NCBI GenBank assembly: GCA_030625765.1
Contig: DAOUQG010000003.1
Span: 1 to 35,250 of the forward strand
Source: Thermohalobacteraceae bacterium
GTDB lineage: Bacteria > Bacillota > Clostridia > Tissierellales > VENL01
DNA length: 35,250 nucleotides
Direction: 5' to 3'
Shown here: one piece after another, positions 7,800 through 9,432 of the stretch
Layout: each line of letters starts with the position of its first letter
How positions within the stretch are numbered: the stretch's first letter is position 1
Notes under the pieces: model-generated
What the model was told of the DNA's origin: nothing
Databases searched by the model: none
What the model saw: the letters and a program-made list of their open reading frames with translations, nothing else
Made by a program: the position numbers and the translations under genes

Positions 7800-8567
7800 A
7801 TGAAAACTAATTCTGCAAAAAATTTATCTCATGATTTACTTAGTCATGAGCAGACAATGGAATTGATTGAAAAGGCTCAAATGGGAGATGAAGAAGCTCA
7901 GTCTATTATTGTAAATCACAATCTTGGTCTTGTAAGGAGTGTTTTAAAGAGGTTTACAAACAGAGGATATGACTCAGAAGATTTATTTCAATTAGGTTGT
8001 ATTGGTCTTTTAAAAGCAATTCAAAAATTTGATGCTAATTATGATGTAAGATTTTCTACATATGCTGTTCCAATGATAATTGGAGAGATAAAAAGATTTT
8101 TAAGAGATGATGGAATTATTAAAGTTAGTCGTTCGTTAAAACAGACTGCAAATAAAGTTAAAATGACTAAAGAGAAATTAATCAAAAAATTTGGAAGAGA
8201 ACCTACTATTGAAGAACTTGCTGAAGAGATTAATGTGGATAAAGAAGAAATAATTATGGCGTTAGAATCTAACCATCATCCAGAATATCTATACGATGTA
8301 ATCCATCAGAATGATGGGTCACCTATTCATTTAATTGATAAGTTGGCAAATAGTAAGAATGAAGATTTAGAGGTATTAGATAGAGTAACAATAAAAGAGG
8401 TTTTAAACCAATTAAAGCCAAGAGATAGACAGATAATTGTATTAAGATATTTTAAAGATAAGACTCAAACTGAGATTGCAAAGATGTTAAATATCTCTCA
8501 GGTTCAAGTATCACGAATTGAAAAAAGAGTTCTAGAAAACATGAAAAAAATACTAACAAAGGCATGA
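7800..8567 (+). CDS. sigF: Sporulation sigma factor SigF
   Basis: Sigma-70 regions 2, 3 and 4; operon context with spoIIAA/AB. Confidence 0.95.
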   Translation: MKTNSAKNLSHDLLSHEQTMELIEKAQMGDEEAQSIIVNHNLGLVRSVLKRFTNRGYDSEDLFQLGCIGLLKAIQKFDANYDVRFSTYAVPMIIGEIKRFLRDDGIIKVSRSLKQTANKVKMTKEKLIKKFGREPTIEELAEEINVDKEEIIMALESNHHPEYLYDVIHQNDGSPIHLIDKLANSKNEDLEVLDRVTIKEVLNQLKPRDRQIIVLRYFKDKTQTEIAKMLNISQVQVSRIEKRVLENMKKILTKA

Positions 8568-8587
8568 AATTCATGTCCTTTTTTTTT
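8558..8587 (+). terminator. Terminator after sigF
   Basis: GGCATGAA / TTCATGTCC hairpin (one bulge) followed by T8-9. Confidence 0.7.
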
Positions 8588-8639
8588 GCATCAAAAAAGC
8601 AGAATAGTAAATAATAAGATATGAAATGGAGTTGATTTT

Positions 8640-8804
8640 ATGAAAATAAGAAAAAGAAAAATTATAATATTTTCAGTTTTACTTATTTTTGCAATTTCAA
8701 TAAGTTTTTTTATATATGCAAGTAATAAATCTAACAAGGAAGATCCAAAAAGGGCTATGTTTGTAAAAAGCTTTATCTTTGAAAAAGGGGTGCTGAAATA
8801 TTGA
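8640..8804 (+). CDS. 54-aa small membrane protein upstream of spoVAA (missing from the ORF track)
   Basis: MKIRKRKIIIFSVLLIFAISISFFIYASNKSNKEDPKRAMFVKSFIFEKGVLKY; one TM helix; RBS GGAG; stop overlaps the spoVAA start region. Confidence 0.65.
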   Translation: MKIRKRKIIIFSVLLIFAISISFFIYASNKSNKEDPKRAMFVKSFIFEKGVLKY

Positions 8805-9432
8805 GAATCATAATGTTTTTATTCAACTAGAACCTATAATAGAATCAAAACCAAATGAACATATTAGAGTTAAGGATATTGCAGCAGTTTATTGTGATGA
8901 TAAAGATATAGAAAAAAAAATATTAAATATTAATATTCATAAAACTTCAATAAATTTTAAAAATGAGGTAATATCAGTACTTACGATAATCAAGAAAATA
9001 AAAGAGAATGAAAAAGCTATAGACATAACAGTTTTTGGCAAATCTGAGATACTAATCAACATTAAAAATTATAACAAGTCAAATGTTGTTTTCAGATTAA
9101 TGAAAGTATCACTGGTGTGTATAATATTATTTTTGGGCGCAGGACTGGCAATAATTAATTTTCATGAAGATGTTAATATTGAGAATTCATTTAAAACCTT
9201 TCATTATCTAATAACAGGAGAGTTTAGTGAAAGACCATTATTATTGCAAATTTCTTATTCTATAGGAATAGGTGTTGGAATGATAACATTTTTTAATCAT
9301 GTTTTTAAAAAGAAATGGAAGAAAGAACCTAGTCCACTTGATGTTGAAATGTATTTTTATCAGAAAAATATTGATGAATATATAATTGATAATGCTAAAC
9401 AAAATAGTGGCTCAAAATCTAAGAAAGAATAA
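8800..9432 (+). CDS. spoVAA: Stage V sporulation protein AA, apparent ATT start (track shows only 9100..9432)
   Basis: Frame open from 8797; (M)ENHNVFIQLEPIIESKPNEHIRVKDIAAVYCDD... continues without a stop into MKVSLVCIILFLGAGLAIINFHED; RBS AAGGGGTG; first gene of the spoVA order. Confidence 0.85.
   Translation: MENHNVFIQLEPIIESKPNEHIRVKDIAAVYCDDKDIEKKILNINIHKTSINFKNEVISVLTIIKKIKENEKAIDITVFGKSEILINIKNYNKSNVVFRLMKVSLVCIILFLGAGLAIINFHEDVNIENSFKTFHYLITGEFSERPLLLQISYSIGIGVGMITFFNHVFKKKWKKEPSPLDVEMYFYQKNIDEYIIDNAKQNSGSKSKKE

Follow-up and report, generated by a model that had tools for sequence, protein, structure and literature searches.

Probable AUU initiation of spoVAA in a Thermohalobacteraceae genome and a conserved AUA/AUC/AUU start at this gene in the order Tissierellales

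The spoVAA gene in the window (the whole stretch of DNA analysed, 35,250 nucleotides of contig DAOUQG010000003.1 from a Thermohalobacteraceae bacterium) is very probably translated from an AUU codon at position 8800, and a start codon of the type AUA, AUC or AUU (hereafter AUH) at this gene appears to be a conserved trait of the order, identified as Tissierellales by its named members. The probability of this reading, which rests on comparison of sequences, is put at roughly 0.9. No noncanonical spoVAA start was reported in the literature searched. The features of the window concerned are as follows.

8588–8616, forward strand: promoter-like pair GCATC (8588–8592) and AATAATA (8610–8616), spaced by 17 nt, in the gap that separates sigF from the small ORF
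8640–8804, forward strand: 54-aa small ORF encoding one membrane span and then PKRAxxV, conserved between sigF and spoVAA
8785–8792, forward strand: predicted Shine–Dalgarno sequence AAGGGGTG of spoVAA, from 16S tail pairing at an aligned spacing of 9, with an equivalent site in 37/38 AUH orthologues
8794–8796, forward strand: in-frame stop TGA directly 5′ of the spoVAA start, read from the sequence
8800–8802, forward strand: probable AUU start codon of spoVAA, from AUH at the homologous position in orthologues, the infC control and the canonical neighbours
8800–9432, forward strand: spoVAA coding sequence as read from AUU, 210 codons plus stop, from the PF12164 match and identity to relatives in the order

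The spoVAA frame was found to be open from the TGA at 8794–8796 and closed by a stop ending at 9432. As the first-pass annotation had claimed, it has no standard start before 9100: the sole ATG, GTG, TTG or CTG in this frame from 8797 to 9102 is the ATG at 9100, an internal Met codon, and the ORF listing gives just a 110-aa ORF (9100–9432) for the gene. The Pfam profile PF12164 (SporV_AA, cut-off 25 bits) matched the full 211-codon frame at residues 5–90 (E 4.1e-16, 59.5 bits), so that initiation at 9100 would remove the SporV_AA domain, consistent with the annotation's further statement that such a start loses the N-terminal domain. The window SpoVAA aligned with its relatives in the order over the whole length, from codon 8800 onward, at 38–60 % identity. 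This alignment and the SporV_AA match indicate that the frame 5′ of 9100 is real protein. Both in the window and at orthologous loci, spoVAA lies 3′ of sigF and 5′ of spoVAB-AC-AD.

To compare start codons, 249 genomes of the order were searched and all spoVAA loci were compared. The gene was present in 64 genomes, and the codon aligned with the window ATT was AUA in 24, AUC in 10, AUU in 4, AUG in 23, UUG in 2 and GUG in 1, giving an AUH start in 38/64 and a canonical start in 26/64; in a few genomes the start is displaced from the aligned position by one or two codons. Since the same position holds AUH in 38 of the 64 orthologues, its occurrence at the spoVAA start is not chance; equally, the 26 relatives with canonical starts indicate that members of the order can do without the weak start. 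Among the named members, AUH occurs for example in Sporosalibacterium faouarense (a member of Tissierellales), Thermohalobacter berrensis, Anaeromonas, Caloranaerobacter azorensis, Anaerosalibacter, Tissierella simiarum and Schnuerera, and the complete chromosome CP118523.1 also has an AUH spoVAA start. Canonical examples are Tissierella praeacuta (AUG) and T. creatinophila (UUG).

The AUH genes were found to be conserved among relatives beyond chance and to have no usable canonical in-frame start. ATG, GTG and TTG are absent between the upstream in-frame stop and codon 12 in 14 of the 38 AUH orthologues; in a further 12 the sole such codon is a GTG or TTG within the Shine–Dalgarno sequence, and in the remaining 12 the canonical candidates have a weak Shine–Dalgarno sequence or none. 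The closest contrast is that between one genome with ATG (L122) and three with ATA (L124, L128 and L130), in which the following codons, GAT-AAA-GAT-CAA, are identical. In the sister genomes L116 and L118 the spoVAA start is shifted one codon downstream to ATG (TAT-ATG-AAC), and their relatives L120 and L131 keep ATT.

In the window, a 7-nt spacer separates AAGGGGTG from the ATT at 8800–8802. Across AUH orthologues a strong, properly spaced Shine–Dalgarno sequence was the rule, the register of GGAGG to the AUH codon being 7–9 nt in 37/38; the window site is moderate (energy −9.0). Initiation at AUU 8800, one of the options raised by the first-pass annotation, thereby gained support, because 37 other genomes of the order, single-contig ones included, align an AUA, AUC or AUU with this codon and share its Shine–Dalgarno spacing. 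Shine–Dalgarno pairing was stronger in AUH than in canonical spoVAA genes (mean energy −11.5 vs −8.6; P 2e-4 with no correction for kinship). As a phylogenetically independent correlate of AUH, however, Shine–Dalgarno strength did not hold up, there being just 4–6 independent pairs, too few for such a contrast.

The same scan was applied to neighbouring genes and to infC. As negative controls, spoIIAA (61/61), sigF (62/62) and spoVAC (62/62) were all canonical, as were spoIIAB and spoVAD in all but one genome (L148, where no candidate scored), and no convincing AUA, AUC or AUU start was present among hundreds of neighbouring-gene instances at the same loci. Noncanonical calls for spoVAB, spoVAEB, spoVAEA and spoVAF were weak or shifted and look like scanner artefacts, less certainly so for two spoVAF calls; most of those printed have an ATG nearby at an off spacing. 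For spoVAB of L153, L143, L145, L147 and L140, which the scan called noncanonical, the ATG is oddly spaced from a GGTGGTGA site. In the window, spoVAC (9902) and spoVAD (10358) start with TTG, and the spoIIAA genes of relatives mostly do so; the region is therefore rich in starts that are non-AUG yet canonical. The positive control, infC, had an AUH start in 31/31 genomes of the order by the same method (AUU 25, AUC 3, AUA 3; loci L174–L203 plus L204, G000:C239). Outside the order, spoVAA had canonical candidates at a further 26 class loci and 17 phylum loci; among the phylum loci, L249 is a weak, uncertain spoVAA match. None of these loci required an AUH reading.

The history of the start codon was traced over a phylogeny of 62 genomes built from five neighbouring proteins. 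The distribution of AUH and canonical starts required 6 changes, against a mean of 19.4 when shuffled, and none of 500 shuffles gave so low a number. At its third position, the AUN start also changed between G and non-G 6 times, compared with 7–13 times (median 10.5) at 20 four-fold silent columns with 12–17 G tips. These columns have fewer G tips than the start codon, so fewer changes would be expected in them, yet more were seen; the start third base switches between G and non-G less often than any comparable silent site. Within the AUH genomes, A, C and T at the third base interchanged 9 times, the same as the median of 9 at ordinary Ile codons. Because G/non-G switching is rare and the other three bases replace one another at the rate of ordinary Ile codons, the non-G class appears to be held while the letter is free. 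This supports, without proving, the view that the AUH start is a slowly changing and probably selected trait, the comparison columns being few.

The small ORF upstream of spoVAA encodes a protein with a basic start, a single hydrophobic span and then PKRAxxV (PK[RK]AxxV across loci). It is kept in all 62 genomes of the order in which sigF adjoins spoVAA and also occurs in related Clostridia, for example Alkaliphilus and Natronincola. In its motif block the P and V are invariant and third codon bases are the most variable positions. It is unannotated and matched no Pfam or NCBIfam family above cut-off. Its stop, the TGA at 8802–8804, overlaps the window spoVAA start, and such an overlap is usual in genomes of the order, which suggests translational coupling. 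Coupling is not what distinguishes the AUH genes, since AUG genomes share the overlap, mostly with the same 8 nt. A constraint from this overlap was also considered as the cause of AUH and rejected: AUH genomes vary in the length and frame of the overlap, and 7 of the 38 lack it. Upstream, a T-rich sigF terminator precedes the promoter-like pair and the small ORF. By a strict pattern, a similar motif (G.AT.AAAA-N-.ATAATA) is present in 43/62 orthologous gaps, and the pair at 8588–8616 probably serves the small ORF and the spoVA genes as a promoter for a forespore sigma factor (F/G). RNA structure at the spoVAA start was not notable (z +0.95), and no Rfam match to a riboswitch or other RNA family was found in 8400–9000.

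Several readings would dispense with AUU initiation. The first-pass annotation had raised the possibility that the T5 run at 8816–8820 misses one T, spoVAA then being an ordinary TTG-initiated ORF. The assembly is in 259 contigs and 86 % complete, and a T6 run would bring the TTG at 8801–8803, which lies in a different frame from spoVAA, into the SpoVAA frame at a similar length. However, the T5-ATTCAACTAGA stretch recurs unchanged in a relative of the same family (L126), gap-free in the SpoVAA frame; against a profile made without the window, the T6 N-terminus (MRIIMFF) scored 291.0 bits, 5.5 lower than the 296.5 bits of the AUU frame (MENHNVF); and 37 other genomes, none of which has such a TTG, require an AUH start. 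A missing T is thus highly improbable. The annotation had also offered a programmed −1 frameshift from this TTG, to which may be added a frameshift fusion of the small ORF with spoVAA. G-UUU-UUA is slippery-like, and most genomes have an overlap of the small ORF with spoVAA, but depending on the genome this ORF lies in either of the other two frames or ends 5′ of spoVAA, so that no conserved slippery site with an overlapping zero-frame ORF was found. The TTG itself arises solely from the ATTG of the window, relatives lacking such an arrangement, and RNA structure gives a frameshift no backing. It was correctly stated that the TTG overlaps a TGA, although this TGA is the small-ORF stop and not the in-frame one at 8794–8796. 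Frameshifting is accordingly given even less credence than a missing T.

Alternatively, the GTG of the Shine–Dalgarno sequence (codon −3) could be the true start of the relatives, with AUH as an internal Ile codon. In part of the AUH genomes codon −3 is indeed a GTG or TTG in frame, but in the rest, the window included, such a codon lies out of frame or is missing. It seldom has a Shine–Dalgarno sequence of its own, and the AUG orthologues L122, L133 and L149 have the same GTG upstream of their ATG. This origin for SpoVAA is about as improbable as the homopolymer error.

With AUU 8800 as the preferred start of spoVAA, the following role is proposed. Initiator tRNA-fMet would start translation at this codon, positioned by AAGGGGTG, and the window AUU would be the local form of an AUH start kept by most spoVAA genes of the order. 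IF3 destabilizes initiation at codons besides AUG, GUG and UUG (PMC5472188). Its discrimination against AUH would yield less SpoVAA per mRNA than AUG, the strong Shine–Dalgarno sequence in part offsetting the weak codon, and ribosomes ending the overlapping small ORF may aid loading at the spoVAA start. SpoVAA assists the SpoVAC-D-Eb channel, and in Bacillus subtilis deletion of spoVAA leads to premature germination (PMC11841064), a phenotype of loss rather than of excess. The weak start may be maintained so that SpoVAA stays scarce in comparison with the other SpoVA proteins, or so that it responds to IF3. That it limits SpoVAA dosage is slightly favoured here; that it responds to IF3 in the forespore is a tentative suggestion. 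Equally speculative is the wider model that, in Tissierellales, AUH and small-ORF termination beside the Shine–Dalgarno sequence would tie SpoVAA output to IF3 level and leader translation, setting germination readiness.

A serious rival to this functional half of the explanation is that AUH, though genuinely the start, makes almost no difference to fitness: clostridial ribosomes would use it well after a strong Shine–Dalgarno sequence, and the state would persist by drift. In two Clostridium species, AUU, AUA and AUC starts gave 5–20 % of AUG expression in one context, and a set including them gave 40–100 % in another (PMC9680021). Since AUH starts in clostridia can reach the latter range, the dosage effect may be small. 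The free A/C/T variation among AUH genomes is likewise in keeping with drift. Against it, neighbouring genes of the same genomes do not show AUH, AUG/AUH switches are rarer than changes at comparable silent sites, and in other prokaryotes a change from ancestral AUG to AUU was seen at 1 of 61,358 starts (PMC5622118). Near-neutrality is consequently considered possible, though unlikely.

Among known systems, infC, which encodes IF3, is similar in having AUH after a strong Shine–Dalgarno sequence with the class conserved. It differs in encoding IF3 itself and autoregulating, whereas spoVAA is a spore membrane-protein gene with a weaker Shine–Dalgarno sequence and with AUG in several clades. The Staphylococcus aureus genes ccpN (AUA) and cvfC1 (AUU) share a conserved AUA/AUU start and an extended Shine–Dalgarno sequence, with expression about 10 % of that from AUG (PMC13009471). 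They are unrelated genes with measured expression, whereas spoVAA is known by sequence comparison and has AUH across many genera of one order. In Streptomyces, sigR has a conserved noncanonical start that limits one operon protein and is repressed by IF3 (PMC5472188); this start is GTC rather than AUH, the product is a sigma factor, and IF3 repression is shown for sigR but presumed for spoVAA. The spoVAA genes of Bacillus and other Clostridia are orthologous; those sampled from outside the order start at canonical codons.

A conserved AUA, AUC or AUU start is known for few bacterial genes, and spoVAA would add a sporulation and germination gene to the class of infC, ccpN, cvfC1 and sigR. The annotation's suggestion of a regulatory novelty held in that the noncanonical start appears real and the IF3 sensitivity it raised is plausible, but the start is a clade-wide trait rather than a peculiarity of this strain. 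Gene finders limited to ATG, GTG and TTG will truncate or mis-start SpoVAA in AUH species. The AUG and AUH sister lineages constitute a natural experiment that makes the purpose of weak starts testable, and if SpoVAA output follows IF3, the level of a translation factor would be tied to spore germination in these bacteria.
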